Part shown: positions 2,465 through 40,201 of the stretch, in pieces | Layout: each line of letters opens with the position of its first letter | Numbering within the stretch: position 1 is the stretch's first letter | DNA from: Giesbergeria sp. | Lineage (GTDB): Bacteria; Pseudomonadota; Gammaproteobacteria; Burkholderiales; Burkholderiaceae_C | Direction: 5' to 3' | DNA: 47,046 nucleotides | Assembly (NCBI GenBank): GCA_023150295.1 | Contig: JAKLLE010000023.1 | Location: forward strand, 1 to 47,046 | Notes under the pieces: model-generated | What the model was told of the DNA's origin: nothing | The model's database searches: none | Seen by the model: the letters and a program-made list of their open reading frames with translations, nothing else | Position numbers and translations under genes: made by a program

Positions 2465-3607
2465 ATGAGCGAACCCGCGCGGCTCTGGGACACAGCGCGT
2501 GCGCGTCTGGCCCGAACGCTGGCCCTGCTCGCCTGCCTGGCGCTGGCAGGCTGCGCCCACATCGAGGGGGCGCTGGGCTACTACTGGCAATCGGTACAAG
2601 GCCATGCACGCCTGCTGCAGGCCGCGCGGCCACTGGACGCATGGATTGCCAGCGAGAGCACCCCTGCACCCCTGCGCGCGCGCCTGCAACTGGCGCAGAG
2701 GGCGCGCCAGTTTGCCGTGCAGGAACTGGGCCTGCCCGACAACGCCAGCTACCGCCGCTATGCCGACCTGGGCCGCAGCGCCGCGGTGTGGAACGTGGTG
2801 GCCGCGCCGCCCTACGCGCTGGAGCTGCACCGCTGGTGCTTTCCCATCACCGGCTGCATTGGCTACCGGGGCTACTTCCAGGAGGCCGATGCCCAGGCGG
2901 AGGGCGCACGCCTGGCCGCGCAGGGGCTGGAGGTGGACGTGTACGGCGTGCCCGCCTATTCCACGCTGGGCTACCTGGACTGGGCGGGCGGCGACCCGTT
3001 GCTGAACACCTTCATCGGCTGGCCCGAGGGCGAGTTTGTGCGCCTGCTGTTCCACGAACTGGCGCACCAGGTGGTGTATGCGCAGGGCGACACGCTGTTC
3101 AACGAATCCTTTGCCACCGCCGTGGAGCGCCTGGGCACCGAGCGCTGGCTGGCCACGCAGGCCCGCCCCGAGGTGCGCCAGGCCTTTGCCGCCAGCGAAG
3201 AGCGGCGCCAGGCCTTTCGCGCCCTGACGCGTGCCACGCGAGCACGGCTGGCCGAAATTTATGATCAAAACAAGGCTCCAGCGCAAGACAGGCAAGCGCT
3301 GGAAGCTATGAAATCAGTAGCAATGCAGGACTTTCGCGCCCGGTACGCTGCGCTGCGCGAACGCTGGCTGGCCCAGGGCGCGCGCGTGGAGGGCTATGAC
3401 CGCTGGGTGGCACAGGCCAACAACGCCAGCTTTGCCGCCCAGGCCGCCTACGACGCCTGGGTGCCCGCCTTTGAGGCCTTGTTTGCGCAGCAGGACGGGC
3501 GCTGGAACGCGTTTTATGATGCAGTGCGCAGCCTGGCCGCCTTGCCGCAGAGCGAGCGCCATGCGCGCCTGCAGGCCCTGCTGCCACCACCCCACCAAGG
3601 AGACTGA
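2465..3607 (+). CDS. Predicted lipoprotein aminopeptidase (COG4324 family)
   Basis: 380 residues. The N-terminus has a basic stretch, a hydrophobic core and a lipobox (LACLALAGC), so it is probably exported and lipid-anchored. A zinc-metallopeptidase HExxH motif is visible (LLFHELAHQVVYAQGDTLFNESFATAVE), with a downstream Glu likely as third ligand, as in the predicted aminopeptidases of this family. Substrate is unknown. Residues about 265-287 (EIYDQNKAPAQDRQALEAMK) are encoded by a copy of the dispersed palindromic repeat (3257-3324), inserted in frame in a predicted helical region after the catalytic site. The start at 2465 gives a good signal sequence. Confidence 0.88.
   Translation: MSEPARLWDTARARLARTLALLACLALAGCAHIEGALGYYWQSVQGHARLLQAARPLDAWIASESTPAPLRARLQLAQRARQFAVQELGLPDNASYRRYADLGRSAAVWNVVAAPPYALELHRWCFPITGCIGYRGYFQEADAQAEGARLAAQGLEVDVYGVPAYSTLGYLDWAGGDPLLNTFIGWPEGEFVRLLFHELAHQVVYAQGDTLFNESFATAVERLGTERWLATQARPEVRQAFAASEERRQAFRALTRATRARLAEIYDQNKAPAQDRQALEAMKSVAMQDFRARYAALRERWLAQGARVEGYDRWVAQANNASFAAQAAYDAWVPAFEALFAQQDGRWNAFYDAVRSLAALPQSERHARLQALLPPPHQGD
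3257..3324 (-). repeat. Dispersed palindromic repeat, copy 1 (inside aminopeptidase CDS)
   Basis: Read on the minus strand it runs TTGCTACTGATTTCATAGC, then TTCCAGCGCTTGCC, a variable centre, TTGCGCTGGAGCC and TTGTTTTGAT, matching the other six copies in order and spacing. It lies wholly inside the aminopeptidase gene, keeps the frame open, and is visibly more AT-rich than the flanking coding DNA. The encoded segment shares the reading frame used by copy 5 in the chaN gene. Confidence 0.75.
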
Positions 3608-3611
3608 ACCC

Positions 3612-3950
3612 ATGTCCGTGATCCACATCCACCGCCACCACCACCTGGGCCTGGAGGAAGCCCGCAAGGTCGCCTTCCTGTGGGCGGAGCAGGCCGAGGA
3701 GAAGTTCGACATGGAATGCGCCTACGAAGAGGGTGACGATCTCGACACCGTGTACTTCAACCGCGCCGGGGTCAAGGGCACGCTGCAGGTGCAGCACGAC
3801 CAGTTCGAGTTGCGCGCCGAACTGGGCTTTCTGCTCGGCTCCTTCAAGGGCCGCATCGAGCAGGAAATCACCCAGCAGCTCGACACCCTGCTGCACCCCG
3901 CCGAGCCGGGCAAGAAGCACAAGCACGCCGCCAAAAAGAAGAAGGGCTGA
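3612..3950 (+). CDS. Polyhydroxyalkanoic acid system (PHA granule region) family protein
   Basis: 112 residues: MSVIHIHRHHHLGLEEARKV, then a charged helix, KGTLQVQHDQFELRAELGFLLGSFKGRIEQEI and a lysine-rich tail (GKKHKHAAKKKKG). This matches the small proteins annotated as putative polyhydroxyalkanoic acid system proteins, thought to associate with PHA granules; molecular role unknown. A strong ribosome binding site (AAGGAG at 3597-3602) precedes the ATG at 3612 and overlaps the aminopeptidase stop, so the two genes are coupled. The histidine-rich N-terminus is normal for the family. Confidence 0.85.
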   Translation: MSVIHIHRHHHLGLEEARKVAFLWAEQAEEKFDMECAYEEGDDLDTVYFNRAGVKGTLQVQHDQFELRAELGFLLGSFKGRIEQEITQQLDTLLHPAEPGKKHKHAAKKKKG

Positions 3951-3971
3951 ACAGCTCAGGGCACAAAGGAC

Positions 3972-3993
3972 AAAGCCCTCCGAAGAGGGCCTT
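3972..3993. terminator. Intrinsic terminator, TTCG tetraloop, between convergent genes
   Basis: GCCCTC (3975-3980), loop CGAA, GAGGGC (3985-3990): a perfect 6-bp stem. On the minus strand the loop is the very stable TTCG and the stem is followed by TTTGTCCTTT, so it should end transcription of the small gene at 4043-4204. On the + strand no T tract follows, so it is weaker for the PHA-region gene. Confidence 0.65.
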
Positions 3994-4042
3994 GCGGGGT
4001 GCGCGGGCTGCGCGCCGCGCGGGTGTGGCGTCAGCCGCCGAC

Positions 4043-4204
4043 TTACTTGTGGCGTTTGCCAGCGTTCTTCTTGCTGCGCGTGTGCGAGCCACGCTCCAGG
4101 CTCACGCGCTGGCCACGGCCAGGGGTGGGCAGCACAACGCCGTTGGGCGTCTTGGGTTGGGGGGTGAACTTGCGGTCGGCTTCGGTAACGATTTTGTTGC
4201 CCAT
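4043..4204 (-). CDS. Small conserved basic protein, 53 aa
   Basis: An ATG at 4204 opens 53 codons ending in TAA at 4043-4045: MGNKIVTEADRKFTPQPKTP, then NGVVLPTPGRGQRVSLERGS, then a basic tail HTRSKKNAGKRHK. Codon use fits the genome and a terminator hairpin with a TTCG loop lies 50 bp downstream, which supports a real gene. The basic, proline-rich, unstructured composition suggests a nucleic-acid- or ribosome-associated role, but I do not recognise a family with a known function. It lies between the PHA-region gene (convergent) and the acyl-CoA-binding protein gene (same strand, 86 bp upstream). Confidence 0.65.
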   Translation of the reverse strand: MGNKIVTEADRKFTPQPKTPNGVVLPTPGRGQRVSLERGSHTRSKKNAGKRHK

Positions 4205-4290
4205 GGCGAGGTCTCTGTCGGTCAGGTTGAAAACCCCGTATTAGGCCACAGACGCCCGGCGGGCACTGGCGGGGTGGTTGGCAAGCGGAT

Positions 4291-4545
4291 TCAGCTCAGG
4301 GATTCAATCAGGTCGATGTACTGCTGCTTGGCCTCGTCCTGCGCCGTGCCTTTGAGGTTGTTCCAGGCATCCCACTTGGCGCGGCCCACCATGTCGGAAA
4401 AGCCGGGCTTCTTCTCGGCGTTGTCGCCTGCGGTGCCCTGCTTGTACAGCGCGTAGATCTTGAGCAGCGTGGCGTTGTCGGGGCGCTCGCTGAGGTTCTT
4501 GGAGTTGGCCACGGCGGCTTCGAAGGCGGCGTTCAGGTCGGACAT
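4291..4545 (-). CDS. Acyl-CoA-binding protein
   Basis: 84 residues, the normal length for ACBP. The four-helix signature residues are present: AAFEAAVANSKNL, NATLLKIYALYKQGTAGDN, and GRAKWDAWNNLKGTAQDEAK, including the Tyr-Lys of YKQ and the Lys-Trp of KWDAW that bind the CoA moiety. It should buffer and carry long-chain acyl-CoA esters in the cytoplasm. It is divergent from a wax-ester/diacylglycerol acyltransferase gene 147 bp away, an acyl-CoA-consuming enzyme, so a shared role in neutral-lipid storage is likely (inference). A small hairpin (CGGGGA ... TCCCCG) lies in the divergent gap. Confidence 0.93.
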   Translation of the reverse strand: MSDLNAAFEAAVANSKNLSERPDNATLLKIYALYKQGTAGDNAEKKPGFSDMVGRAKWDAWNNLKGTAQDEAKQQYIDLIESLS

Positions 4546-4692
4546 GCAGTGCTCCTTGGGTTGGGGTGGGGTAAGAACGGGGATGCCTTCCCCGGCAGGC
4601 GTTGTATCTTACGTTCACACTGCGGCCACAATCGCTGCATTCCTTAGACGACTGCCTCCAATCACCCAACCCAGCCCCTGCTGCCTTCGCCC

Positions 4693-6309: not shown

Positions 6310-6875
6310 GCCTGCACAACGCGCTGGGCGCCTGCGCGCTGGCCTGCATGTCCCTGGCCGCGCGGGCCGAGGTGCAGGAATCCCACGCGCGGGAGCCCTA
6401 CCCCGTGCACGCCCGCCCAGAACAGACGCTGCGCGAGGCGTTGAACGCGGCCACACCCATCACCTCGGGCGGCCAACGCTTTCATGGCTACACGCACTGG
6501 AACGTGCGCTGGAACTTCTGGTGGCAGCAGGACACTGCAGGCCGATGCCGCATCACACGCGTGAGCACCCGGCTGCAGTCGCGCATCCAGATGCCCGAGC
6601 TGGCCACGGGTACGGCGGCGCAGACGGCGGCCTTTGCGCGCTACCACACCGCGCTGTACCAACACGAGCTGGGCCATGTGGAGTTTGGCCGCAAGGCCGC
6701 GCAGGCCATCGACCGCGGCATTGCCGCCCTGCCCCCCGCCCCCGATTGCCCCACGCTGGAGCAGCAAGCCAACGCCCTGGGCCAGCGCCTGCTGGCCGAA
6801 CAGGCGCAGCAGGAGCGCGACTACGACCAACGCACCCGCCACGGCGCCACCCAGGGCGCATTACTCACTGATTAG
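6291..6875 (+). CDS. DUF922 family secreted protein, probable zinc protease
   Basis: About 194 residues with a likely signal peptide (LHNALGACALACMSLAARA, then EVQES) and a DUF922 domain: PITSGGQRFHGYTHWNVRWNF, then RITRVSTRLQSRIQMPEL, then YQHELGHVEFGRKAAQ with a HExxH-type zinc motif. Family members are predicted periplasmic metalloproteases. No ATG precedes the signal peptide; GTG at 6291 gives a basic N-terminus and overlaps the upstream gene by 19 bp, while CTG at 6312 follows GAGGA better, so the start is uncertain. It is translationally coupled to the WS/DGAT gene. Its stop (6873-6875) directly abuts repeat copy 2. Confidence 0.78.
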   Translation: MGRGRLSLHNALGACALACMSLAARAEVQESHAREPYPVHARPEQTLREALNAATPITSGGQRFHGYTHWNVRWNFWWQQDTAGRCRITRVSTRLQSRIQMPELATGTAAQTAAFARYHTALYQHELGHVEFGRKAAQAIDRGIAALPPAPDCPTLEQQANALGQRLLAEQAQQERDYDQRTRHGATQGALLTD

Positions 6876-6938
6876 TTGCTATTATTTTGATAGCTTCAAG
6901 CGCATGAAAGACGGACGCCAGAAGCCAAAATGACTCAA
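6876..6938 (+). repeat. Dispersed palindromic repeat, copy 2 (fills a convergent gene gap)
   Basis: TTGCTATTATTTTGATAGC, TTCAAGCGC, a variable centre, ACGCCAGAAGCCAAAATG and ACTCAA. The stem GCTAT/ATAGC is visible at the left. It begins at the base after the DUF922 stop codon and its right end contains the stop codon of the convergent M14 gene (6935-6937), so it occupies the entire inter-stop gap. Confidence 0.8.
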
Positions 6939-8038
6939 GAACCAAGCCCCTGCACCGCCTGAAACAAGGCCTGGCGTGCCTGGGCAATGACCTGGCCTTT
7001 CCAGGTGTCCGTGTCGGTGTAGAAGGCGTTGCGCATGCGCGCCTTGATCTGCGCGGCCAGCGCGGCATCGGCCTCGGGGTGAAGCTGCAGCCACTGTTCG
7101 GCGCGCAGGGCCTCGATCACTTCCATGACGGGCACGGTGCCGTACTCCAGCGCAATGCCGGTGAACTCGGCCTGTGGGCATTCGTCGTAAATGGCGTTCC
7201 ACATCAGGCCGGTCAGGAAGGCCGAGGTGGAGGAGCCGTCGTAGATCGAGGTCACCGGCGTGCTGCCGCCGCCGTCCCACCAGCGGCGGGCACGCGCCAC
7301 GGCACTGGCGTCGTCGCGGCCCGCGTAGATGCGCTCGCCATGGCCACTGGGGCCCAGGCCGGTGTGCAGGTCGATCCAGCCGATGCGCCGCGCTGCGCCA
7401 CCGTGCGCTCGCAGCACCTGGCGCAGGGTGCGGTGGCTCCAGGTGGGTTCGGTGCCGCCAAAGAACAGGCCCTGCGGGTAGGCATGCTGGCCGCGCGAGA
7501 TGGCGGCCTGCCAGGCCGACTCGCCGTGCGTGGCCAGGTACTGCTGCACGGCCGCCTGGTTGGCCGCGCCCGGCGGCCAGGCGTCGGGGATGACAAGGTG
7601 CGCAATGGCGGCGTAGTCCGTGTTGACGGGCAGGGGCTGGCCGAAGTCCTGGAAGTTGCGGTTGAGGTCCACGTTTTCGTGCGTGACCCGGCGCAGGTGC
7701 GAGAAGCCATAGGGGTTGAGCGCATGCAGGTAGAGCACGGCCACGCCCTGCGCATGCGCCGCCGCGCGCCAATCAGCGTCATGCAGCGCGTACACCTGCA
7801 CGCCGCTGCCGCAAAAGCCCTCCACGCCATGGCAGGCACTGCTGACGATCAGCAGCTTGTCGGCATCCGGCGGGCCATCACGCGCCACGTCCAATGCCAG
7901 CGCTTCGCCCTCGCTGCCGGGCAGCGGGTGCGGGTGCGACTGCAGCGGCAGGCCCGCCGTGGCAGCGGCCTCCAGAAAGCGCGCCCTGGCCTGTGCGTAG
8001 TTGGACGCAAAGGCCTGTACCACGCCCACTGCGCTCAT
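6935..8038 (-). CDS. DUF2817 / M14-like metallopeptidase
   Basis: 367 residues starting MSAVGVVQAFASNYAQARAR. It matches the DUF2817 branch of zinc carboxypeptidases: LLIVSSACHGVEGFCGSGVQ supplies an HxxE zinc motif, NPYGFSHLRRVTHENVDLNRNF is the arginine/asparagine substrate site, IGWIDLHTGLGPSG gives the third zinc ligand, and FTGIALEYGTVP the likely catalytic Glu. It should remove a C-terminal residue from a peptide or amide. ATG at 8038 overlaps the M20 gene stop (ATGA, 8035-8038), so the pair is translationally coupled; longer upstream starts lie inside the M20 gene. Confidence 0.87.
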   Translation of the reverse strand: MSAVGVVQAFASNYAQARARFLEAAATAGLPLQSHPHPLPGSEGEALALDVARDGPPDADKLLIVSSACHGVEGFCGSGVQVYALHDADWRAAAHAQGVAVLYLHALNPYGFSHLRRVTHENVDLNRNFQDFGQPLPVNTDYAAIAHLVIPDAWPPGAANQAAVQQYLATHGESAWQAAISRGQHAYPQGLFFGGTEPTWSHRTLRQVLRAHGGAARRIGWIDLHTGLGPSGHGERIYAGRDDASAVARARRWWDGGGSTPVTSIYDGSSTSAFLTGLMWNAIYDECPQAEFTGIALEYGTVPVMEVIEALRAEQWLQLHPEADAALAAQIKARMRNAFYTDTDTWKGQVIAQARQALFQAVQGLGS

Positions 8039-9246: not shown

Positions 9247-9317
9247 GGCGAAGTCCTGTGTTGTCTTCCTTGGAAGCCACAGTCTATCGCCGGTGCAGGC
9301 AGCGCGCAGCCTCGGGC

Positions 9318-9331
9318 TTGATTACCATCAC
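9318..9331. promoter_or_regulatory. FNR/DNR-like box next to the molybdoenzyme start
   Basis: TTGAT-TACC-ATCAC matches the FNR/DNR consensus TTGAT-N4-ATCAA at nine of ten positions. It lies only 3 bp upstream of the assigned ATG at 9335, so it cannot act as a classical activator at -41.5 unless transcription starts inside the annotated gene and a later start codon is used. It could also act on the divergent M20/M14 operon. Confidence 0.35.
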
Positions 9332-9334
9332 GCC

Positions 9335-11398
9335 ATGCTCCACGAAGACCCATCCCGCACTGCCCTGCGCCAGGTGCGCGGCGCCTGTCCGCACGACTGC
9401 CCCGACACCTGCGCCCTGCTCACCACCGTGGAGAACGGCGTGGCCACGCGCGTGCAGGGCAACCCGGCGCATCCGCAGACCGGCGGCGTGCTCTGCGCCA
9501 AGGTCTCCAAATACCCCGAGCGCACCTACCACGCCGAGCGCATCCTCACGCCGCTCAAGCGCAGCGGCCCCAAGGGCAGCGGGCAGTTCACGCCCGTGGG
9601 CTGGGACGAGGCGCTGGCGGACATCGCCGCGCGCCTGGAGGCGATCGCCGCGCGCGACCCGCAGGCCATCCTGCCCTACAGCTACGCCGGCACCATGGGC
9701 CTGGTGCAGGGCGAAAGCATGGACCGGCGCTTCTTCCACCGCCTGGGCGCCTCGTTCCTGGACCGCACCATCTGCGCCACCGCCGGCGGCGAGGGCCTGG
9801 TGCACACGCTGGGCGGCAAGGTGGGCATGAAGGTGGAGTTCTTTGCCGAATCCAAGCTCATCCTCATCTGGGGCAGCAACTCGATTGGCAGCAACCTGCA
9901 TTTCTGGCGTATCGCGCAACAGGCCAAGCGCGACGGCGCCAAGCTCGTGTGCATCGATCCACGCAAGAGCGAAACCGCCGAGAAATGCCACGAGCACATC
10001 CAGCTCCTGCCCGGCACCGACGCGGCGCTGGCACTGGCGCTGATGCACGAACTCATCGCCCACGGCTGGCTTCATCATGACTACATCGCGCGCCACACCG
10101 TGGGCTGGGAAAAACTGCGCGAGCGTGCCCTGCAATGGCCGCCCGAGCGCGCGGCGCAGGTGTGCGGCATTCCGGTGGAGCAGATCCGCCAGCTCGCGCG
10201 CGACTACGGCACCACGCAGCCCGCCGCCATCCGTCTGAACTACGGCATGCAGCGCGTGCATGGCGGCGCCAACGCGGTGCGCGCCGTGGCCTGCCTGCCC
10301 GCGCTCACGGGCGCCTGGCGGCACCGCGCGGGCGGCGTGCTGCTGTCCAGCTCGGGCCGCTTCCCGGTGGACCGCACCGCACTGCAGCGCCCCGACCTGC
10401 TGGCAGGCCGCAGCCCGCGCACCATCAACATGGTGACGATTGGCGACGACCTGTTGCGCGAATCCTCGCCCGCCTTCGGCCCGAAGATCGAGGCCCTGGT
10501 GGTTTACAACAGCAACCCCGTGGCCGTGGCGCCCGAATCGGGCAAGGTGGTGCAGGGCTTCGCGCGCGAGGACCTGTTCACCGTGGTGCTGGAGCATTTC
10601 CAGACCGACACCGCCGACTACGCCGACTACCTCCTGCCCGCCACCACCCAGCTCGAACACTGGGACGTGCACCTGGCCTACGGCCACACCGACGTGCTGC
10701 TCAACCGCCCCGCCCTTGCGCCCCAGGGCCAGGCGCGCAGCAATGCGCGGATCTTCCGCGACCTGGCCGCGCGCATGGGCTTTGCCGAGCCCTGCTTTGC
10801 CGAGAGCGACGAGCAGCTCTGCCGCCAGGCCTATGGCAGCGCCGTGGACTTCGACCTGCTGCTGGAACAGGGCTTTGCCTCCCTGCCCATGCCCGATGCG
10901 CCGTTTGCCGAAGGCGGCTTTCCCACGCCCTCAGGAAAGTGTGAATTCTTCAGCCAGCGCCTGGCCGACCAGGGCCTGGACGGCCTGCCCGACTACCTGC
11001 CCAACCACGAGGCCGCGGGCGGCTCGGCACCGTACCCGCTGGCCATGATCTCGCCGCCGGCGCGCAACTTTTTGAACTCCAGCTTCGTGAACCTGCAAAG
11101 CCTGCGCGACATCGAGGGCCGCCCGCTGCTGGAGATGCACCCGCAGGACGCGGCCGCGCGCAGCATCGAGGACGGCAGCGTGGTGCGCGTGTTCAACGGC
11201 CGCGGCAGCTACCGCTGCCACGCCCATGTGAGCGAGCGCGCCCGGCCCGGCGTGGTCAACGGCCTGGGCATCTGGTGGCGCAAGCTCGGGTTGGACGGCC
11301 ACAACGTCAACCAGCTCACCAGCCAGGCGCTGACCGACCTGGGGCGCGGGCCGACGTTTTATGACTGCCTGGTGGAAGTGGAAGCAGCGGGCGCCTGA
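9335..11398 (+). CDS. Molybdopterin-dependent oxidoreductase (bis-MGD family)
   Basis: 687 residues. The N-terminus carries a 4Fe-4S motif, ACPHDCPDTC (about residues 21-30) with the fourth Cys in GGVLCAKVSKY, followed by bis-MGD-binding regions: GWDEALADIAARLEAI, LIWGSNSIGSNLHFWRI, and a C-terminal dinucleotide-binding domain (NSSFVNLQSLRDIEGRPLLEMH). No Tat signal is seen, so it is likely cytoplasmic. The substrate cannot be read from sequence; relatives include formate dehydrogenase- and thiosulfate/polysulfide reductase-like enzymes. No partner subunits lie nearby. If the FNR-like box is real, the start may be GTG at about 9380, close to the Cys motif. Confidence 0.9.
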   Translation: MLHEDPSRTALRQVRGACPHDCPDTCALLTTVENGVATRVQGNPAHPQTGGVLCAKVSKYPERTYHAERILTPLKRSGPKGSGQFTPVGWDEALADIAARLEAIAARDPQAILPYSYAGTMGLVQGESMDRRFFHRLGASFLDRTICATAGGEGLVHTLGGKVGMKVEFFAESKLILIWGSNSIGSNLHFWRIAQQAKRDGAKLVCIDPRKSETAEKCHEHIQLLPGTDAALALALMHELIAHGWLHHDYIARHTVGWEKLRERALQWPPERAAQVCGIPVEQIRQLARDYGTTQPAAIRLNYGMQRVHGGANAVRAVACLPALTGAWRHRAGGVLLSSSGRFPVDRTALQRPDLLAGRSPRTINMVTIGDDLLRESSPAFGPKIEALVVYNSNPVAVAPESGKVVQGFAREDLFTVVLEHFQTDTADYADYLLPATTQLEHWDVHLAYGHTDVLLNRPALAPQGQARSNARIFRDLAARMGFAEPCFAESDEQLCRQAYGSAVDFDLLLEQGFASLPMPDAPFAEGGFPTPSGKCEFFSQRLADQGLDGLPDYLPNHEAAGGSAPYPLAMISPPARNFLNSSFVNLQSLRDIEGRPLLEMHPQDAAARSIEDGSVVRVFNGRGSYRCHAHVSERARPGVVNGLGIWWRKLGLDGHNVNQLTSQALTDLGRGPTFYDCLVEVEAAGA

Positions 11399-11465
11399 TG
11401 CTATTGTTTCGATAGCTATCCGCGCTTTACCACAGGGCGCCAGAAGCCCATTGGGCTTCTAGCCA
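11399..11465 (+). repeat. Dispersed palindromic repeat, copy 3 (fills a convergent gene gap)
   Basis: TGCTATTGTTTCGATAGC, TATCCGCGC, centre, GGGCGCCAGAAGCC and a strong hairpin AGAAGCCCA-T-TGGGCTTCT (9-bp stem). It lies exactly between the stop of the molybdoenzyme gene (11396-11398) and the stop of the convergent hydrolase gene (11466-11468). The hairpin could terminate both transcripts. Confidence 0.8.
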
Positions 11466-14123: not shown

Positions 14124-14127
14124 GCAC

Positions 14128-14193
14128 CCTATTAGCTATTTTGGCCTCCAGCGCCCGTCCACAGGGCGCCAATAGCTATTAAATTTATAGCAT
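14128..14193 (-). repeat. Dispersed palindromic repeat, copy 4 (fills a convergent gene gap)
   Basis: Read on the minus strand: ATGCTATAAATTTAATAGC, TATTGGCGCCC, TGTGGAC, GGGCGCTGGAGGCC, AAAATAGCTAATAG. The GCGCCC/GGGCGC stem is perfect (6 bp). It lies between the DUF3567 stop (14121-14123) and the convergent hemerythrin stop (14194-14196). It is likely to act as a bidirectional terminator in addition to whatever role the repeat has. Confidence 0.8.
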
Positions 14194-14745
14194 TCAGTAT
14201 GTCGCGCTGCGGCGGCGGCGCATGTCTTGGCCCATGTCCGCCAGCGCCTGCGGGGTGAGCAGCGCGCGGGCGGCGGGGTACACCAGGTCTTCCTCGGTGC
14301 GGATATGGGCGCCATAGCCGCTGGCAAAGCGCTCGAACAGGGCTTCGTCGTCGGGGGTGAAGGCGTCGGTCTGGCCCTGCGCCAGGGCCTGCAGGCGCTC
14401 ACGCGCCGCCTGCCAGTGGGTGTGCATGGCCTGGTGGTCGTCCTGCAGTTGTTGCACGGCGGCGCGCACTTCGGGGGTGCCGTTGTCCAGCAGGGGCGGG
14501 AAGACGTGCATCTCCTCGTCCTCATGGTGCAGCGGCGCGGCGATGTCGAAGTAGCGCAGCACATCGCGCGCGGCCTGGCGCGCCGAGTCGTCGCAACCAT
14601 CGGTGTGCAGGTAGGCGGTCAGCCGGTCCAGCAGGCCCAGGGTGCGCTGCACGCGCTCGTGGCAGGCTTCGAGCATTTCGAACGGCGTGTCAAAGCCCAC
14701 GGCGGGGGCGCCAAAGCCGGGCAAGGGGGTGCGCTGTGCGGCCAT
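14194..14745 (-). CDS. Hemerythrin domain-containing protein
   Basis: 183 residues with the metal-binding pattern of hemerythrins: HERVQRTLGLLDRL, LHHEDEEMHVFPPLL (HxxxE), DDHQAMHTHWQ, and GAHIRTEEDLVYPAA (HxxxE). A di-iron site for O2 or NO is expected; proteins of this type are linked to oxygen sensing, iron storage or repair of nitrosative damage. The C-terminus is basic (DMRRRRSATY). It is the last gene of a co-directional series with the 134-aa protein (4-bp gap), nitroreductase, NnrS and NrdJ, a setting that favours a role in handling NO or O2 during nitrate respiration (inference). Confidence 0.92.
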   Translation of the reverse strand: MAAQRTPLPGFGAPAVGFDTPFEMLEACHERVQRTLGLLDRLTAYLHTDGCDDSARQAARDVLRYFDIAAPLHHEDEEMHVFPPLLDNGTPEVRAAVQQLQDDHQAMHTHWQAARERLQALAQGQTDAFTPDDEALFERFASGYGAHIRTEEDLVYPAARALLTPQALADMGQDMRRRRSATY

Positions 14746-14749: not shown

Positions 14750-15154
14750 TCACCCGAAATGCACCGGCTCGCCCTGCCGGTTGAAGGGGATGAAGGACCC
14801 CAGCATGCCCTGCTTGATGGCTTCGACCATGTGCTGCAGGGGCTTCTCGGCCTCTTCGCTGGTGGGCACGTGGTTCAGCGTGCCGGACATGGCCGCCACA
14901 AAGACGATCACCCATTCCTGGCCGAACTGCTGCGACTCCTGCGCCAGGGCGTCGAAGCTGGCGATCTCGGCAGGCAGCTTGTCCACACACATGCGCGGCA
15001 CCAGCGCGCCGCCGTGGCCCGCCGCAAAGGCCGTGCGCTGCTCGGCGGTGGCATCGTCGGGCAACTCGACACCGGTGAACACGAACAGCAGGCGCTGGGG
15101 TTCGGGTTGGGCATGCGCGGCGCGCAGCAGGTCGTCAAAGCAGGTGATTTCCAT
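14750..15154 (-). CDS. Conserved 134-aa protein of unknown function
   Basis: 134 residues: MEITCFDDLLRAAHAQPEPQ, then RLLFVFTGVELPDDATAEQR, then GGALVPRMCVDKLPAEI, a hydrophobic strand EWVIVFVAAMSGT, and the C-terminal SFIPFNRQGEPVHFG. Homologues in Comamonadaceae have, as I recall, been labelled 'ribonucleotide reductase subunit alpha', but no RNR motif is present and that label looks wrong, perhaps carried over from position near nrdJ. It is a soluble alpha/beta-type protein. It is preceded by the 13-bp tandem repeat, whose last unit supplies the GGAA ribosome binding site 7 nt before the ATG. Confidence 0.82.
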   Translation of the reverse strand: MEITCFDDLLRAAHAQPEPQRLLFVFTGVELPDDATAEQRTAFAAGHGGALVPRMCVDKLPAEIASFDALAQESQQFGQEWVIVFVAAMSGTLNHVPTSEEAEKPLQHMVEAIKQGMLGSFIPFNRQGEPVHFG

Positions 15155-15240
15155 GGTGGGGTTCCGTGGTGGGGTTCCGTGGTGGGGTTCCGTGGTGGGG
15201 TTCCGTGGTGGGGTTCCGTGGTGGGGTTCCGTGGTGGGGT
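15155..15240 (-). repeat. Perfect 13-bp tandem repeat, six copies plus 8 bp, forming a gene leader
   Basis: On the + strand the unit GGTGGGGTTCCGT occurs six times without error (15155-15232), then GGTGGGGT. In the mRNA sense this is six ACGGAACCCCACC units lying between the nitroreductase stop (15246-15248) and the ATG of the 134-aa gene, which follows the last unit with no spacer. Each unit has a GGAA Shine-Dalgarno-like core. The + strand's GG and GGGG runs could also form a two-layer G-quadruplex. Perfect identity of units suggests recent slippage expansion. Confidence 0.95.
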
Positions 15241-29965: not shown

Positions 29966-29977
29966 AGAGGTGTCCAG

Positions 29978-31344: not shown

Positions 31345-31385
31345 GCCAGGCCAAGGCAAAAGAACGAGGGCAGGCGCCAGGCCAA
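31345..31385. promoter_or_regulatory. Direct repeat in the narL-narK promoter gap
   Basis: The 10-bp word GCCAGGCCAA occurs at 31345-31354 and 31376-31385, 31 bp apart (about three helical turns), within the 179-bp gap upstream of the nar structural operon. No clean FNR box (TTGAT-N4-ATCAA) and no perfect NarL heptamer was found there; AGGAGGTA-like GGAGGTA at 31294-31300 is a near match to the reverse NarL heptamer. Function of the repeat is unknown. Confidence 0.35.
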
Positions 31386-31446
31386 CCTCCCAAAGAACTA
31401 TGTGCGCCGCACTCGGGTATTCGCCAAAAGACCCGGCGAGCGGGCG

Positions 31447-34058: not shown

Positions 34059-34142
34059 GCGCGCAGTGTACGAGAAGGGGCTGCGCCTCTGGCCCATGCC
34101 CCCACGGCTCCAGGCCACCGGCCGCCGTCGTAGCATGGCGGC

Positions 34143-34982
34143 ATGTGGAACCTGCAAACTCTCCCTCGGGCGGCCCTGCTGCTGACCGCCTTGTTCACGC
34201 TCTCTGGCTGCGCCACGGCGCCGCGCAGCAGCACGGCAGACTCCTGGCCCCAGTCACTGCAGCACCTGCTGCCCACCGAGGTGCTGCTGCTGGGCGAACG
34301 CCACGACGCCCCCCAGCACCAGGACATGCAGCGCCAAACGGTGGAATGGTTGGCCCAGCGTGGCCTGCTGGCGGCGCTGGTGATGGAGATGGCCGAAGCG
34401 GGCCACAGCACCCAGGGCCTGGCCCCGCAGGCCAGCGAAGCGCAGGTGCAGGCCGCCCTGGGCTGGAGCGAGGCGCTCTGGCCCTGGCAGCGCTACGCCC
34501 CGGTGGCCATGGCGGCCGTGCGCGCAGGCGTGCCCGTGCTGGGCGGCAACCTGCCCCGGCGCCAGTTGCGCACCGCGCAAACCGACACCAGCCTCGAAGC
34601 GCTGCTGACCCCCGCCGCCGTGGAGCGCCAGCGCCAGGCCGTGCGCGAGGGGCACTGCGACCTGCTGCCCGAGCCGCGCGTGCCCGGCATGGCCCGCGTG
34701 CAGATGGCGCGCGACCAGTCCCTGGCCCAGACCGCCGCTGCGGCACGCCGCCCCGGCCAGGTCGTGCTGCTCGTGGCAGGTGCAACGCATGTCAAGCGCA
34801 GCCTGGGCGTGCCCGTGCACCTGCCGCAAAATATAGAGACAAAAGTGGTCATAGCGCACGCCGGTATTGCGCAAGCAGCTATCAAAACAGAAGCAGACTG
34901 GTGGCACGCCACCGATGCCCTGCCGCCCGACGACGCCTGCGAGCAGTTGCGCCAGCAGTGGCAAAACAGACTTGCGCGCTAA
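34143..34982 (+). CDS. ChaN family lipoprotein
   Basis: 279 residues. A lipobox ends the signal peptide (LLLTALFTLSGC), so it is an exported lipoprotein. The ChaN/haem-binding fold is recognised from VLLLGERHDAPQHQDMQRQTV, ALVMEMAEAGH, VRAGVPVLGGNLPRRQLR and QVVLLVAGATHVKRSLGVPV. The family binds haem as dimers and may act in iron acquisition. Residues about 229-252 (QNIETKVVIAHAGIAQAAIK) come from repeat copy 5 inserted in frame. The TAA stop (34980-34982) shares its last base with the left end of the 161-bp fold-back element. It is divergent from narX. Confidence 0.87.
   Translation: MWNLQTLPRAALLLTALFTLSGCATAPRSSTADSWPQSLQHLLPTEVLLLGERHDAPQHQDMQRQTVEWLAQRGLLAALVMEMAEAGHSTQGLAPQASEAQVQAALGWSEALWPWQRYAPVAMAAVRAGVPVLGGNLPRRQLRTAQTDTSLEALLTPAAVERQRQAVREGHCDLLPEPRVPGMARVQMARDQSLAQTAAAARRPGQVVLLVAGATHVKRSLGVPVHLPQNIETKVVIAHAGIAQAAIKTEADWWHATDALPPDDACEQLRQQWQNRLAR
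34829..34896 (-). repeat. Dispersed palindromic repeat, copy 5 (inside chaN-like CDS)
   Basis: Read on the minus strand: TGCTTCTGTTTTGATAGC, TGCTTGCGC, variable centre, GTGCGCTATGACC, ACTTTTGTCTC. It is inside the coding region, keeps the frame open, and uses the same strand and codon phase as copy 1 (GCG codon of AGCGC; GCT-ATC/ATG-AAA at the other end). The local AT content is clearly above the flanking gene. Confidence 0.75.
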
Positions 34983-35142
34983 GAGGCTGTGAAATTCCCC
35001 CCCATGCCCGCCTTGCACGCCAAAACACCCCTGCTCGTCGTTGCAAATGCTCGCCATAGCCCAAGCTATGGCTGCGCTTTGCGCCTCGATCAGAAGTGTT
35101 TTCGCGCGCCTTTCGGGCACGGCCGAAAAGTTCACAGCCTCT
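34982..35142. repeat. 161-bp fold-back (MITE-like) element with perfect 12-bp inverted ends
   Basis: Ends AGAGGCTGTGAA (34982-34993) and TTCACAGCCTCT (35131-35142) are perfect inverted repeats. Inside, AAAACAC/GTGTTTT, GCAAA/TTTGC and a perfect 8-bp stem GCCATAGC-CCAA-GCTATGGC (35053-35072) are nested, so roughly two thirds of the 78-bp arms pair in one long hairpin with a 4-nt loop. No coding capacity. A diverged terminal copy, GAGGCTGCGAA, follows at 35143-35153. No target duplication is evident. From memory, similar sequences recur in related genomes; not searched. Confidence 0.8.
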
Positions 35143-35165
35143 GAGGCTGCGAAAATGCACCCCTT

Positions 35166-36017: not shown

Positions 36018-36040
36018 GCAGCCCCCGCCAAGGCACACCC

Positions 36041-36955
36041 ATGGCCAACGCAGCACCCCCGTCCTCCCCGGCCCTTGGCAGCGCACTGGCGCGGCGCATC
36101 CCGCCCATCCAGTGCCTGCTGACCTTCGAGGCCCTGGCGCGGCTGCGCAGCGTGACGCTCACGGCCGATGAGCTGTGCGTCACGCCCAGCGCCGTGAGCC
36201 ACCGCGTCAAGCAACTGGAGCAGATCCTGGGCACGCAGCTCTTTGGGCGTGCCGACTTCTCGCTCACCACCGACGGCATCGCCTACCTGGCCCACGTGCG
36301 CGAAGGGCTGAACGCGCTGCAGCGCTTTCCGGGTGTCTCCAGCACACCGGGCAAGCGGCGCCTGCGCATTGCCGTCACGCCCACCTTTGCGCGCGTGGTG
36401 CTCATTCCGCGCCTGCGCCAGTTCACCGAGGTGTACCCCGAGATCGACCTGACGCTGCAAATCTCCATCCCGCTGCTGGACGTGGTGGCCGAGGACGCCG
36501 ACCTGATGGTGCGCTTTGGCACCGGGCGCTACGCCGATGTGGAGCACACCGAGATTGCGCGCGACGTGGTTACCCCCCTGGCCTCGCCCGCCTGGCTGCG
36601 CGAGCACGGCCCCTTCGAGCGCCCCGAGGAGCTGGACCCCGCCACCCTGCTGCGCAGCCCGCTGGAGCCCTGGCGCACCTGGTTTGCCGCCGCCGGGCTG
36701 GACTGGCCAGAGCCCGTTAGTGGCTCGCAGTTCAACGACGTGGGCCTGATGTGCGACGCCGCCGCCGCCGGCATGGGCGTGGCGTTGGTGCGCCTGAAGC
36801 TGGGCGCCCCCTGGATCGAGAACGGCACCCTGGTGCGCCTGTACGACCTGGACGCCCCCAGCCCCCATGGCCACCATCTGTGCTGGCGCACCGGCGCCAT
36901 GGACCGCTGGGAATGCGCTGCCTTTACCGAATGGCTGCACAAGACCATATTCTAA
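36041..36955 (+). CDS. LysR family transcriptional regulator (GcvA-like)
   Basis: 304 residues. The HTH (about 22-75) contains FEALARLRSVTLTADELCVT and PSAVSHRVKQLEQILGTQLF; the effector domain follows (RRLRIAVTPTFARVVLIPRL, then LMVRFGTGRYADVEHTEIAR, then NDVGLMCDAAAAGMGVALVR). It resembles GcvA-type regulators that control one-carbon or amino-acid genes, which would suit its position directly after purU, but the target is unknown. ATG at 36041; the frame continues upstream into purU. Its stop is followed by repeat copy 6. Confidence 0.9.
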   Translation: MANAAPPSSPALGSALARRIPPIQCLLTFEALARLRSVTLTADELCVTPSAVSHRVKQLEQILGTQLFGRADFSLTTDGIAYLAHVREGLNALQRFPGVSSTPGKRRLRIAVTPTFARVVLIPRLRQFTEVYPEIDLTLQISIPLLDVVAEDADLMVRFGTGRYADVEHTEIARDVVTPLASPAWLREHGPFERPEELDPATLLRSPLEPWRTWFAAAGLDWPEPVSGSQFNDVGLMCDAAAAGMGVALVRLKLGAPWIENGTLVRLYDLDAPSPHGHHLCWRTGAMDRWECAAFTEWLHKTIF

Positions 36956-37019
36956 GCAAAATCAGCCTCTAGCGCCCGTCCAATATACGCAAGCAGCTAT
37001 CATAATGATAGCATTCTAG
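36956..37019 (-). repeat. Dispersed palindromic repeat, copy 6 (after lysR stop)
   Basis: On the minus strand: ATGCTATCATTATGATAGC (8-bp stem GCTATCAT/ATGATAGC), TGCTTGCGT, centre, GGACGGGCGCTAGAGGC, TGATTTTGC. It begins at the base after the LysR stop codon (36953-36955), in the gap before glcD. The hairpins could terminate the purU-lysR transcript. Confidence 0.8.
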
Positions 37020-37097
37020 GTCGGCTTGCAGGCGTTTCACAGCGCCCTGCAAAAAGCATCCATGCAGCGGGATGCCGATGGGACTACAGTGGCGCCC

Positions 37098-38588
37098 ATG
37101 AACGCCCCCCTTCCCACTGCCGCCCCCCAGGTACGCGCCGCCCGCCAGGCCGAGGTGGTGCAGGCCTTGCAACAGGTGCTGCCCGCCCAGGCCTTGCTGT
37201 GGCACACCGAGGACACCACCCCCTACGAGTGCGACGGCCTCACCGCCTACCGCCAGCGCCCGCTGGCCGTGTGCCTGCCCGAGACAGAAGCCCAGGTGCA
37301 GGCCGTGCTGCGCACCTGCCACCGCCTGGGCGTGCCCGTGGTGGCACGCGGCACCGGCACGGGCCTGTCGGGCGGGGCCATGCCGCATGCGCTGGGCGTG
37401 ATTCTGTCGCTGGCTCGCTTCAACCGCATCCTGGCGATCGACCCTGCCAGCCGCACCGCGCGCGTGCAGTGCGGCGTGCGCAACCTGGCCATCAGCGAGG
37501 CAGCAGCGCCCCACAACCTGTACTACGCACCCGACCCCAGCAGCCAGATCGCCTGCACCATCGGCGGCAACATTGCCGAAAACTCGGGCGGCGTGCACTG
37601 CCTGAAATACGGCCTGACCGTGCACAACGTGCTGCGCGTGCGCGGCTTCACCGCCGAGGGCGAGGAAGTGGTTTTTGGCAGCGAGGCGCTGGATGCTCCC
37701 GGCTACGACCTGCTGGCCGCCGTGATCGGCAGCGAGGGCATGCTGGCCGTGGCCATCGAGGCCACCGTCAAACTCGTGCCCAAGCCACAGTTGGCGCGCT
37801 GCATCATGGCCAGCTTCGACAGCGTGCGCAAGGCGGGCGACGCCGTGGCTGCGGTCATTGCGGCGGGCATCATCCCCGCCGGGCTGGAGATGATGGACAA
37901 GCCCATGACCGCCGCCGTGGAAGACTATGTGCACGCCGGCTACGACCTCACGGCAGAGGCCATCCTGCTGTGCGAAAGCGACGGCACGCCCGAAGAGGTG
38001 GAAGAGGAAATCGGCCGCATGAGCGCCGTGCTGCAAGGCGCGGGCGCCACCGCCCTGGCCGTGAGCCAGGGCGAGGCCGAGCGCATGCGCTTTTGGAGCG
38101 GACGCAAGAACGCTTTCCCCGCCAGCGGCCGCATCAGCCCCGACTACATGTGCATGGACTCGACCATCCCGCGCAAGCGCCTGGCCGACATCCTGCTGGC
38201 CATCCAGGACATGGAGAAGAAATACGGCCTGCGCTGCTGCAACGTGTTCCATGCGGGCGACGGCAACCTGCACCCGCTGATCCTGTTCGATGCCAACGAT
38301 GCCGACCAGCTGCACCGCGCCGAGCAGTTCGGCGCCGACATCATGAAAACCAGCGTGGCCTTTGGCGGTGCCATCACCGGCGAGCACGGCGTGGGCGTGG
38401 AAAAGCTCGCCAGCATGCGCGAGCAGTTCACCGACGCCGAGCTGGAGCAGATGGAGCGCCTCAAACGCGCCTTCGACCCGCAAGGCCTGCTCAACCCCGG
38501 CAAGGTCATCCCCGCGCCCAACCGCTGCGGCGACATGGGCATGATGAAGGCCCTGGGCGGCGGCAACGCGGCGCTGTCGCGCGCCTGA
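37098..38588 (+). CDS. glcD: FAD-linked oxidase, glycolate oxidase GlcD-type subunit
   Basis: 496 residues. The FAD-binding PCMH domain contains PVVARGTGTGLSGGAMP and IGGNIAENSGGVHCLKYGLT; the C-terminal cap has FHAGDGNLHPLILFD and GAITGEHGVGVEKL, the GlcD/D-lactate dehydrogenase signatures. It should oxidise glycolate or another 2-hydroxy acid. Normally GlcD works with GlcE and GlcF; here lrgA and lrgB follow instead, so either the other subunits are elsewhere or this is a stand-alone D-2-hydroxyacid dehydrogenase. ATG at 37098 was preferred over Mets at 37026 and 37062, since homology starts near VRAARQAEVVQAL. Confidence 0.88.
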   Translation: MNAPLPTAAPQVRAARQAEVVQALQQVLPAQALLWHTEDTTPYECDGLTAYRQRPLAVCLPETEAQVQAVLRTCHRLGVPVVARGTGTGLSGGAMPHALGVILSLARFNRILAIDPASRTARVQCGVRNLAISEAAAPHNLYYAPDPSSQIACTIGGNIAENSGGVHCLKYGLTVHNVLRVRGFTAEGEEVVFGSEALDAPGYDLLAAVIGSEGMLAVAIEATVKLVPKPQLARCIMASFDSVRKAGDAVAAVIAAGIIPAGLEMMDKPMTAAVEDYVHAGYDLTAEAILLCESDGTPEEVEEEIGRMSAVLQGAGATALAVSQGEAERMRFWSGRKNAFPASGRISPDYMCMDSTIPRKRLADILLAIQDMEKKYGLRCCNVFHAGDGNLHPLILFDANDADQLHRAEQFGADIMKTSVAFGGAITGEHGVGVEKLASMREQFTDAELEQMERLKRAFDPQGLLNPGKVIPAPNRCGDMGMMKALGGGNAALSRA

Positions 38589-38612
38589 GGCCCAGCCCGC
38601 AGGCGCCCCACC

Positions 38613-38975
38613 ATGCAGGTGCTCCAGGGCCTGGCCATTGTGCTGACCTTGCAGTCGGTGGGCGAGGCCCTGTCGCGCTGGCTGCACCTACCCTACCCCG
38701 GCCCGGTGATCGGCATGGTGCTGCTGCTGGTCGCGCTGCGCTGGCCTGCCGTGCAGCAGCGCGTGCAGACCGTGGCCCGCTTTCTGCTGGGCCACCTGTC
38801 GCTGCTGTTCGTGCCCGTGGGGGTGGGCGTGGTCACCCAGCTGGGGCTGGTGGCAGAGCACGGCCTGCGGCTGCTGGTGGTGATCGTCGCCTCCACCTGG
38901 ATCGGCCTGGCCGTCACGGCGCTGGTGCTGCGGCGGCTGATGCGCCACACCCCAACCCCAGAGGACCGCGAATGA
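38613..38975 (+). CDS. LrgA/CidA family holin-like protein
   Basis: 120 residues with four hydrophobic helices: LQGLAIVLTLQSVGEALSRW, YPGPVIGMVLLLVALRW (the conserved PGPVIGM motif), FLLGHLSLLFVPVGVGVV and LRLLVVIVASTWIGLAVTAL. LrgA/CidA proteins are small inner-membrane proteins compared with holins; in some bacteria they affect lysis or export of small carboxylates such as pyruvate or glycolate. It overlaps lrgB by 4 bp (ATGA) and follows glcD by 24 bp, hinting that the pair exports or imports a hydroxy acid metabolised by glcD (inference). Confidence 0.92.
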   Translation: MQVLQGLAIVLTLQSVGEALSRWLHLPYPGPVIGMVLLLVALRWPAVQQRVQTVARFLLGHLSLLFVPVGVGVVTQLGLVAEHGLRLLVVIVASTWIGLAVTALVLRRLMRHTPTPEDRE

Positions 38976-39697
38976 CCGACTTCGTGCAACTGTGGGTGTA
39001 CCTGTCGTCCACCCCGCTGTTCGGGCTCAACGCCACGCTGGTGGTCTATGTGCTGGCGCTGGCCTTCTACACCCGCATGGGGCAGGCTCCCTGGGCCAAC
39101 CCGGTGCTGTGGTCCATGCTGGTGCTGGGCACGGGCCTGTGGGCCACGGGCACGGCCTATCCCACCTACTTTGCAGGGGCGCAGTTCATCCACTTCCTGC
39201 TCGGGCCTGCCGTGGTCGCGCTGGCCTGGCCGCTGTGGGAGCGGCGCGCCGCACTGCGCGCGCACTGGGGGCGCTTTACCGTGGCGGCGGTGGTGGGCGG
39301 CGCTGCCGCAGCCGCCAGCGCCGTGGGCCTGGCCTGGGCGCTGGGGCTGCCCACGGAGGTGGTGATGTCGCTGGCGCCCAAGTCGGTGACCGCACCCGTG
39401 GCCATGGGCATTGCCGACAAGGTCGGCGGCATTGCCTCGCTGGCCGCCGTGTTTGCCGTGCTGACCGGGCTGTTGGGCGCCCTCAGCGGCAAGGCCTTGT
39501 TCGCCCTGCTGGGCATAGGCCAGGACGCCACCGGCTGGATGGCACGCGGCTTTGCCCTGGGCACCGCCGCCCACGGCATCGGCGCCGCCCGCGCCCTGCA
39601 GGTGCACCCGGACGCAGGCGCCTGGGCTGCGCTGGCGCTGGGGCTGCAGGTGGTGGTGGCGTCGCTGTTGATCCCGCTGGTGGCGGGTTGGTTTTGA
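38972..39697 (+). CDS. LrgB/CidB family membrane protein
   Basis: 241 residues, about seven membrane segments. The family motifs FIHFLLGPAVVALAWPLWE and EVVMSLAPKSVTAPVAMGIA are clear, with GFALGTAAHGIGAARAL near the C-terminus. It forms a unit with LrgA, whose stop overlaps its start codon. In plants and some bacteria LrgAB/PLGG proteins carry glycolate and glycerate, fitting its place directly after a glycolate oxidase-type gene. The PTEVVMSLAPKSVT region is intact, so it should be functional. Confidence 0.92.
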   Translation: MTDFVQLWVYLSSTPLFGLNATLVVYVLALAFYTRMGQAPWANPVLWSMLVLGTGLWATGTAYPTYFAGAQFIHFLLGPAVVALAWPLWERRAALRAHWGRFTVAAVVGGAAAAASAVGLAWALGLPTEVVMSLAPKSVTAPVAMGIADKVGGIASLAAVFAVLTGLLGALSGKALFALLGIGQDATGWMARGFALGTAAHGIGAARALQVHPDAGAWAALALGLQVVVASLLIPLVAGWF

Positions 39698-39908
39698 AGC
39701 CACAGGCCAAAACGGCCGTCAGGAAAAATCAGCGCGCCAGATGTGCACTGCACGCTGCGCCATCTGGGACTGGCGCAAGTATCAGTTGATTCGCTGCTAC
39801 CTCGTCGTTCAACGCCACTTGCAGGGCATCAAACATGCTGCGGCTGTGGCCGTCCATCGTGCGCCAGAGTACCGAGGATAAAAAGTCTTTGCAGCGTTCC
39901 CAAGCGCC

Positions 39909-40128
39909 TTAGTCGTCCATGGTCAGCACTTTGAGAAAAATCTCGCGGTCTTTCTTGGCGTCATTGCTGGCAGGCATCAGCATGCCTAGGCGCGCACCAG
40001 AATCAAGAGCTTGCGACCCCACCATTTGCCCAGACGGGTCAGCGTCTGCCCGTTGTTGGCCTTGCCTCTTTGTAGGCCTGGGCCGATAGGCGGGCAATGG
40101 GGAACTGGGTTTCGATGACAGTGGGCAT
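39909..40128 (-). pseudogene. Decayed N-terminus of a DUF1156-type (anti-phage-associated) DNA methyltransferase
   Basis: Three adjoining frames join into one N-terminus: MPTVIETQFPIARLSAQAYK (from ATG at 40128), then GQTLTRLGKWWGRKLLILVRA after a missing base near 40065, then GMLMPASNDAKKDREIFLKV-LTMDD after about 7 missing bases near 39988, ending in TAA at 39909-39911. The joined sequence matches, from memory, the start of anti-phage-associated DUF1156 adenine methyltransferases, usually about a thousand residues. The frame past the stop stays open to 39729 (GAWERCKDFLSSVLWRTMDG and onwards) but I do not recognise it. The stretch 39698-39908 holds nothing else. Confidence 0.6.
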
Positions 40129-40130
40129 AG

Positions 40131-40201
40131 GTTGCTTCAAATTTAATAGCTGCTTGCACATATACAGCAAGCGCCATAGGCCAATTTGGCCTAAAAAATC
40201 A
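40131..40201 (+). repeat. Dispersed palindromic repeat, copy 7 (ends on vapC stop)
   Basis: TTGCTTCAAATTTAATAGC, TGCTTGCAC, centre, CAGCAAGCGCCATAGGCC, AATTTGGCC, TAAAAAATCA. Hairpins GCTTG/CAAGC and AGGCCA-ATT-TGGCCT are visible. Its right end includes the vapC stop codon (TCA at 40199-40201), and its left end is the DNA just upstream of the DUF1156 remnant's ATG. Confidence 0.78.

Follow-up and report, generated by a model that had tools for sequence, protein, structure and literature searches.

Seven copies of one repeat in the window

We analyzed a 47,046-nt stretch of a Giesbergeria sp. genome (the window; GenBank assembly GCA_023150295.1, contig JAKLLE010000023.1, positions 1 to 47,046), which contains seven copies (c1 to c7) of a short repeat with a palindromic look. 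These copies and 35 others from the same genome form one family that, after orienting, aligns over 68 columns without gaps (consensus nnnTGCTATnAATTTnATAGCTGCTnGCGCTTnnTnnACnnGCGCTAGAGGCnnATTTnnnTnnAAnn), and this alignment, together with scores of 52.6-73.4 bits under the family model R1, bears out the claim of an earlier note on this DNA that all seven are copies of one element. The training set of R1 contains all seven; the 35 additional copies come from 20 stretches of this genome, where they were picked as exact matches to GCTAT-N7-ATAGC, and the five of the 44 pattern sites that were excluded are nevertheless scored by R1 at 33.8-52.2 bits. The element is real, widespread and conserved, and fragments of it are already in print.

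Three of the copies fill convergent gaps from stop to stop, as the earlier note had described: c2 (6874..6941, plus strand; R1 61.8 bits) occupies the 59-nt gap between the DUF922 and DUF2817 genes, c3 (11396..11463, plus strand; 55.2 bits) the 67-nt gap between the molybdopterin oxidoreductase and FAA hydrolase genes, and c4 (14128..14195, minus strand; 66.1 bits) the 70-nt gap between the DUF3567 and hemerythrin genes. Also in agreement with that note, c6 (36949..37016, minus strand; 73.4 bits) begins at the LysR stop codon (gene 36041-36955), and c7 (40130..40197, plus strand; 61.9 bits) ends adjoining the stop of a VapC-like PIN-domain gene (40199-40600, minus strand; PF01850, E 7.9e-21), which belongs to a PIN-domain/MazE-type pair (40199-40830), likely a VapBC-like toxin-antitoxin module. 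The broader statement that the copies are tied to gene 3' ends holds for these five but fails for the other two. Copy c1 (3258..3325, minus strand; 60.3 bits) lies antisense in the middle of an aminopeptidase gene (2465-3607, plus strand; PF10023 at residues 38-369, E 4e-126), and c5 (34831..34898, minus strand; 52.6 bits) lies antisense within a ChaN-like gene (34143-34982, plus strand; PF04187 at residues 40-227), its end 84 nt short of the gene end.

The element has a near-invariant asymmetric core, ATAGCT-N4-GCGC-N11-GCG, within a conserved stretch that is bounded near column 2 and column 70 (56 copies). The left arm GCTAT is less constant than ATAGC, and the GC content of full-length matches ranges from 28 to 57%. 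Rfam gave no match at the element copies, RNAalifold gave no useful consensus structure, and no name for the element was found in a literature search.

Abundance, inheritance and traces in other records

The pattern GCTAT-N7-ATAGC occurs at 257 sites in the 3.69-Mb source genome, and the reversed control pattern at none. A position-specific scoring matrix (PSSM), used with the A/T tracts and the tail masked, identified 201 copies, 54 of them the training set, in 1.2278 Mb of this genome and none in the same DNA reversed. We estimate about 400-600 copies in the source genome. The first 447 kb sampled contain 44 exact-pattern sites alongside 72 copies (those of the 81 R1 matches that score at least 24.7 bits), which scales to about 420 for the source genome; the density in our own sample, 16.4 copies per 100 kb, would imply 600, an overestimate because these stretches were selected around hits. 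Evenly spaced stretches of two relatives with complete genomes, 400 kb from each, yielded 62 copies in G063 (15.5 per 100 kb) and 52 in G004 (13.0 per 100 kb), with none in the control. Regular spacing of the copies was considered and rejected: the variance-to-mean ratio of copies per 20 kb is 0.85 and 0.66 in these two genomes, respectively, with no formal test applied, and 0.45 in the own stretches, a value biased by choosing stretches around hits.

The earlier note had pointed to similar sequences in Comamonadaceae, and the element is indeed nearly restricted to this family. R1 matches are present in 25 of 60 family genomes (one per genus, source genome included), at least 15 of them per genome in 19. 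An order-wide draw of 150 genomes gave R1 matches in 4, namely, the source genome, two of the same family and one from outside it (G210, a 78% complete genome with 2 matches). Counts of R1 matches per genome that reach 150, 85 or 34 are lower bounds, and searches spanning more than 40 genomes used stricter filters. The carriers among 45 stretches include Acidovorax, Simplicispira, Diaphorobacter, Extensimonas, Ottowia, Giesbergeria and a Ramlibacter. An exact pattern also identified 11 viral-contig stretches.

Window copies have counterparts at orthologous sites: c1, c2, c4, c5 and c6 in G082, c1 to c5 in G071, and c1, c4, c5 and c6 in G010 and likewise in G004. Traced by site, c2 is occupied in six relatives (L052, L055, L057, L060, L067, L069), c4 in L052, L056, L060, L062 and L065, c6 in L053, L064 and L066, and c3 in L060, and copies lie within the orthologue of the c5 gene in L053, L061, L063 and L066. 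A protein search for the c1 gene gave a match in 37 of 60 relatives; among the 30 loci fetched, source included, 19 carry an R1 match at the same position in the gene. The same gene is without an R1 match in four genera that lack R1 matches (G001, G005, G007, G008). Site losses also occur: at c3, neither G082 nor G062 has a hit at E 0.001. The third tract is AAAA in 7 of the 8 c2 copies of the orthologue set and TTTT in most family copies, so the sites retain their own history. Among 193 own copies compared pairwise, a single pair reaches 85% identity and none reaches 86%; with no near-identical pairs, the element does not visibly multiply now in the source genome.

Other DNA is present at two of these sites in some relatives. 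In G062 (L055, 6797-14672), a 7.7-kb cluster that includes a two-component system, a radical SAM protein, PqqD, an aminotransferase and others is located at c2, with element copies at 6797 and 14605 flanking it. The c3 gap is a possible insertion hot spot: five relatives (G082, G062, G071, G010 and G003; stretches L052, L055/L056, L060, L062 and L070) have about 1 to 3.7 kb inserted there.

Two motif pairs listed without explanation in 2017 (PMC5217627, Table 7) can be placed within the element: GCTTAT(N)5AAGCG, with 114 copies in Acidovorax ebreus, fits columns 29-44, and ATAGCT(N)22CAAAAG, with 125 copies in Polaromonas naphthalenivorans, fits columns 17-50. In a comparative sample of 315 element copies from 2.03 Mb of three genomes, exact in-place matches to these pairs are found in 24 and 3 copies, respectively, and 56 of the 57 GCTTAT(N)5AAGCG sites on both strands of the own-genome sample are inside the element. 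The contexts given for the A. ebreus motif, 44 convergent, 4 divergent and 59 co-oriented (PMC5217627), point the same way as the placement reported below. Copies within genes are only counted there (5 in A. ebreus, 18 in Polaromonas), and the motif section of that paper treats the motif pairs separately and does not define the element, its extent, its conservation or its family range. The Beta-proteobacterial repeat element (BRE) resembles ours in being short, mostly intergenic and present in Comamonadaceae, where 1-29 copies are tabulated (PMC3110155). By its description, the BRE differs in length, GC content and arrangement, being about 90 bp long, with a mean GC content of 69% in Bordetella and often tandem in variable number (PMC3110155), whereas our element is 68 bp long, 28-57% GC and single.

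The consensus of the element matched 1757 plasmid records, nearly all partially, and 17 of 30 among the matches listed fall on a gene annotated as DUF1010. In the class 1 integron of the Escherichia coli plasmid pP11b, the DUF1010 gene flanked by dfrA12 and aadA2 has a full copy within it (L208, 1785-1852); we take this cassette to be the one named gcuF. Two of the four PF06231 (DUF1010) hits in the source genome (C134:35461 and C91:3874) are antisense readings of copies among the R1 matches listed, and the remaining two are outside these matches. In its first part, the DUF1010 family resembles the translation product of an element copy; the integron cassette may come from a Comamonadaceae relative. 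Repeated PF06231 hits near contig starts in G010 (C4:435-1393, C12:521-1651) possibly represent a chromosomal integron cassette array.

Placement at gene ends and constraint within genes

In the comparative sample, where genes were called with our own codon-usage gene finder, without curated annotation, 154 of the 315 copies lie in codirectional gaps, 78 inside predicted genes, 60 in convergent gaps, 12 in divergent gaps and 11 at edges; the neighbor pairs in the same 2.03 Mb are 1238 codirectional, 225 convergent and 221 divergent. Numbers per gene pair count copies, so that a gap holding two copies is counted twice. The specialization for 3' ends proposed in the earlier note stands as a strong bias toward 3' ends and convergent pairs, but not as a rule, given the copies in predicted genes. 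Within codirectional gaps of at least 150 nt, 30 of 69 copies overlap the stop codon or lie within 15 nt of it, and 8 of 69 lie within 15 nt of the next start, where even placement predicts 10.6 per end. Altogether, the stop is within 15 nt, or overlaps the element by up to 20 nt, in 149 of the 214 codirectional or convergent copies. Among 115 copies with the left end facing a stop, GCTAT follows the stop codon at a distance of 1-3 nt in 45, and 9 more genes end 16 nt inside the element, where its ATAGC supplies the TAG (the codon being read from the consensus).

Convergent gaps that hold a copy, after subtraction of 58 nt, have the same length as gaps without one (p 0.78), whereas codirectional gaps treated in the same way are longer than those without a copy (p 0.0001); therefore, tight operon joints are avoided. 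Codirectional copies show no significant preference for orientation (88 the same as the genes, 66 opposite; p 0.09). A copy lies within 200 nt at 0 of 23 tRNA units, compared with 220 of 854 protein-gene ends (p 0.002), and an ordinary terminator, a stem with a T-run, is present at 16 of the 23. Codon use is slightly more typical in genes followed by a copy at the 3' end (0.384 vs 0.363 per codon; p 0.0004), and these genes do not differ in length from genes without one.

The copies within genes offer a view of the constraint on the element itself. At the c1 loci, the mean majority frequency is 0.93 in the columns conserved across the family, 0.62 in the variable columns and 0.72 in the flanks, and column conservation at this locus correlates with that in the family (Spearman 0.67, p 7e-9). 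This comparison covered 20 of the 30 loci (L022-L041, including L032, which lacks an R1 hit) and was anchored by protein alignment rather than element score; the other ten have no R1 hit within the gene. Because the conserved columns of c1 are the conserved columns of the family, selection acts on the element sequence and not only on the protein. In 18 relatives carrying c1, GC content at third codon positions (GC3) is 0.24-0.48 within c1 and 0.69-0.94 in the rest of the gene, and in 16 of the 18, amino acid identity is lower within the c1 region than elsewhere in the gene. Identical amino acids are encoded by the same codon in 159 of 203 cases in c1 vs 2849 of 4136 elsewhere (p 0.004), a pooled count that excludes L032 (4 of 10 vs 148 of 229); individually, the rate in c1 is lower than elsewhere in L030 and L040 and about equal in L035 and L041. 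GC3 is likewise depressed in c5, at 0.38 vs 0.90 for the remaining gene in the source genome and 0.19-0.48 vs 0.79-0.94 in four relatives, where the same-codon rate is mixed. The element appears to be kept by selection on its bases, as shown at c1 and supported at c5.

Far-decayed copies are few: the PSSM identifies 201 own-genome copies at a threshold of 16 and 203 at 12 (control 0), and 211 at 6 (control 10). Copies within genes score lower than the others (median 37.9 vs about 49).

Possible roles of the element

In copy number, palindromic look and 3'-end bias, the element fits the likeness to repetitive extragenic palindromic (REP) repeats and bacterial interspersed mosaic elements (BIME) that the earlier note had drawn: like those of E. 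coli and Pseudomonas, it is a short palindromic chromosomal repeat, present in many copies and placed at 3' ends. REP and BIME elements occur in either orientation and bind gyrase, IHF or Pol I, and those of E. coli are reported to stall ribosomes near stops. Our element differs in its 68-bp length, its asymmetric core, the DNA-level constraint within genes and its occurrence as single copies rather than paired clusters. No paired or clustered alternating copies were seen by eye, the closest two separate copies being about 880 nt apart in the first own-genome sample (in stretch L004) and, among the matches listed, about 376 nt apart in G063. REP-type repeats were described decades ago. Their roles are still called unclear (PMC12306157).

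We lean, tentatively and with somewhat less than even confidence, toward the interpretation that an old REP-like element is now maintained as a sequence-specific gene-end site, probably of DNA bound by a putative protein; that the element has a function is probable. A 68-bp chromosomal REP-like family of Acidovorax and other Comamonadaceae would have spread by insertion long ago, as the gap lengths suggest, and its copies would since have been inherited at fixed sites, as shown for several window copies. Each copy would be a BIME-type double-stranded DNA site, read in either orientation by a putative chromosomal protein, for which nucleoid proteins and topoisomerases, gyrase among them, are candidates; we infer both the binder and its effect. 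Such sites would lie where protein genes cease to be transcribed and where supercoils or polymerases come together, and would be tolerated in genes provided that they do not end the transcripts of these genes. The copies are rare in promoter regions and were not seen after tRNA genes.

The pattern of conservation is in line with this interpretation. The earlier note had named conserved secondary structure and 3'-end bias as the properties to look for; the bias is real, and the conserved feature is the sequence, the pairing being without clear covariation. Across the 315 copies, z lies between -0.6 and 2.0 for the nine pairs of hairpin II and does not exceed 1.9 for hairpin I, a shuffle test with 42 copies is null, and no clear covariation of paired columns was found, a result in which the PSSM threshold could hide weak covariation. 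Visible stems without clear covariation are more readily understood as part of a linear recognition sequence than of a hairpin that is being maintained. The constraint in c1 and c5, the small number of decayed copies, the lack of a significant orientation preference and the placement at gene ends likewise speak for a DNA site. We also count for the DNA site that the element is plasmid-poor: three 50-kb stretches of a Diaphorobacter plasmid hold one copy in one stretch and none in two (1 copy per 150 kb), and a fourth, chosen because it matched, holds one. One particular kind of DNA site, a replication-polar motif similar to the KOPS (FtsK orienting polar sequences), was considered and rejected, as 150 listed copies of the complete genome G063, compared by bins, without a formal test, with the GC skew of 20 stretches, show no strand bias by arm.

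Several observations weigh against a protein-bound DNA site. We know of no binding protein for the element. The c1 orthologues are phylogenetically non-independent, and codon constraint could contribute to the pattern there; 45 of the 201 own copies score only 16-40; and the median nearest-neighbor identity among own copies, 0.746 vs 0.701 in column shuffles, indicates some subfamily structure. The element can fold: hairpin II averages about -12 kcal/mol both in codirectional copies and in convergent ones, folding of own copies is somewhat favored over that of shuffles (mean z of -1.4 in the sense and -1.6 in the antisense direction), and the weak third helix pair 51-61 exceeds shuffles with z 3.3, the highest of the pairs tested. 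In 47 of the 88 codirectional sense copies, hairpin II and the ATTTT that comes after it look like a Rho-independent terminator when read in the element's sense direction. The third tract inside genes is 14 T : 17 A in sense vs 33 T : 7 A in antisense copies (p 0.002). Terminators are called at 62 of 220 gene ends with a copy vs 117 of 634 without (p 0.003). Finally, there is a precedent at the RNA level in E. coli, where many REPs are within 15 nt of a stop codon and are reported to stall ribosomes (PMC12306157).

It is also possible that the element acts as RNA at mRNA ends, be it as a bidirectional terminator, a block to 3' exonucleases or a stop-proximal hairpin that slows ribosomes as in E. 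coli REPs. Stop codons abut the element, and it trails protein genes rather than tRNA units. The terminator-like form is found in only 7 of 35 in-gene sense copies, significantly less often than in the codirectional sense copies (p 0.001), and the loss of the T-tract from sense in-gene copies stands out against the sum of the intergenic classes (166 T : 47 A). The tract of loop I, which does not follow a GC-rich stem, is 19:15 in sense and 26:14 in antisense copies, with no shift (p 0.48), and because this built-in control is unshifted, a plain amino acid cause of the T-tract shift is disfavored. The avoidance of the T-tract in sense in-gene copies points to a transcriptional effect of the RNA.

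An RNA role is harder to reconcile with the lack of clear covariation, the lack of a significant sense preference downstream of genes, the sequence-constrained copies within genes, and the reliance of most tRNA units on ordinary stem-T-run terminators. From a Rho-independent terminator, the element differs by its lack of a significant sense preference and of clear covariation and by not being found after the tRNA units. On the element's own strand, the terminator-like form is present in 42 of 66 antisense codirectional copies, alongside the 47 of 88 in sense. Among gene ends with a copy, the terminator is the element itself in 55 of 219, and a separate one is present in 31 of 219. Sense copies with a T-tract and antisense copies do not differ in how far away the next gene lies (p 0.76). 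A directional terminator, which the in-gene T-tract result favors, was rejected: along with this null, the A-type loop that it predicts in antisense codirectional copies failed to appear (35 T : 23 A). Our reading is that a sense copy with a T-tract can disturb the transcription of its host gene and that termination is not the main purpose of the copies.

That the element is an inert relic of a non-autonomous transposon, mobilized by a REP-associated tyrosine transposase (RAYT) or otherwise and tolerated at gene ends as the least harmful insertions, we regard as unlikely. Past insertion is suggested by convergent gaps that grow by the element's own length only, by gene stops within the element, by the c1 gene being free of it in four genera, and by the lower scores of in-gene copies. 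A relic is hard to reconcile with the site-specific constraint in c1, the low GC3 retained in c1 and c5, the paucity of decayed copies, the copies at orthologous places across genera and the lack of near-identical pairs. A RAYT partner, for which the earlier note had proposed to look, is not supported. The source genome has only one PF01797 (RAYT-type) gene, with no element copy in its 3.3-kb locus; PF01797 genes are of similar frequency in genomes with 15 or more R1 matches (17 of 19) and in those lacking R1 matches (25 of 35); and G020, a 100% complete genome with 66 R1 matches, has none. By inspection of the consensus and base counts, the end tags of REPs, GTAG and CGTC (PMC3733652), are absent as well. 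The notion that the element labels gene boundaries as places where islands preferentially land or recombine, prompted by the G062 cluster with a copy on either side and the c3 insertions, is highly improbable, as a Pfam scan of eight G062 island genes found no integrase, convergent gaps are favorable places to land in any case, and the island may simply bring its own copy because the two flanking copies differ and each lies at a gene end.

Other repeats were observed along the way. The single contig of G015 has 20 PF01797 matches, several equal-scoring and some split, perhaps a recently active IS200/IS605-like family. In the window, a MITE-like (miniature inverted-repeat transposable element) inverted repeat at 34975-35150, with 59-nt arms that are 73% complementary, has four more long copies in the genome at 85-90% identity, and about 7 tandem copies of the 13-bp unit TTCCGTGGTGGGG (98% matches) are located at 15149-15240.

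Returning to the putative protein-bound DNA site, it can be extended to a system that spans the chromosome and is particular to Comamonadaceae, with a putative dedicated DNA-binding protein that would read hundreds of sites as a topological or transcriptional insulator of gene ends, with the sites at protein-gene ends retained by selection even against codon preference in genes. In this full form, the proposal is doubtful.

For the first part of DUF1010, including the integron gene between dfrA12 and aadA2, the element suggests an origin, and the two motifs of 2017 (PMC5217627) are united into one element. One reason why the roles of REPs stay unclear is that insertion, drift and function are hard to separate, and the in-gene copies of the present element provide a built-in control. 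These copies show sequence kept apart from the encoded protein and, therefore, make the function of a repeat testable in culturable Acidovorax.

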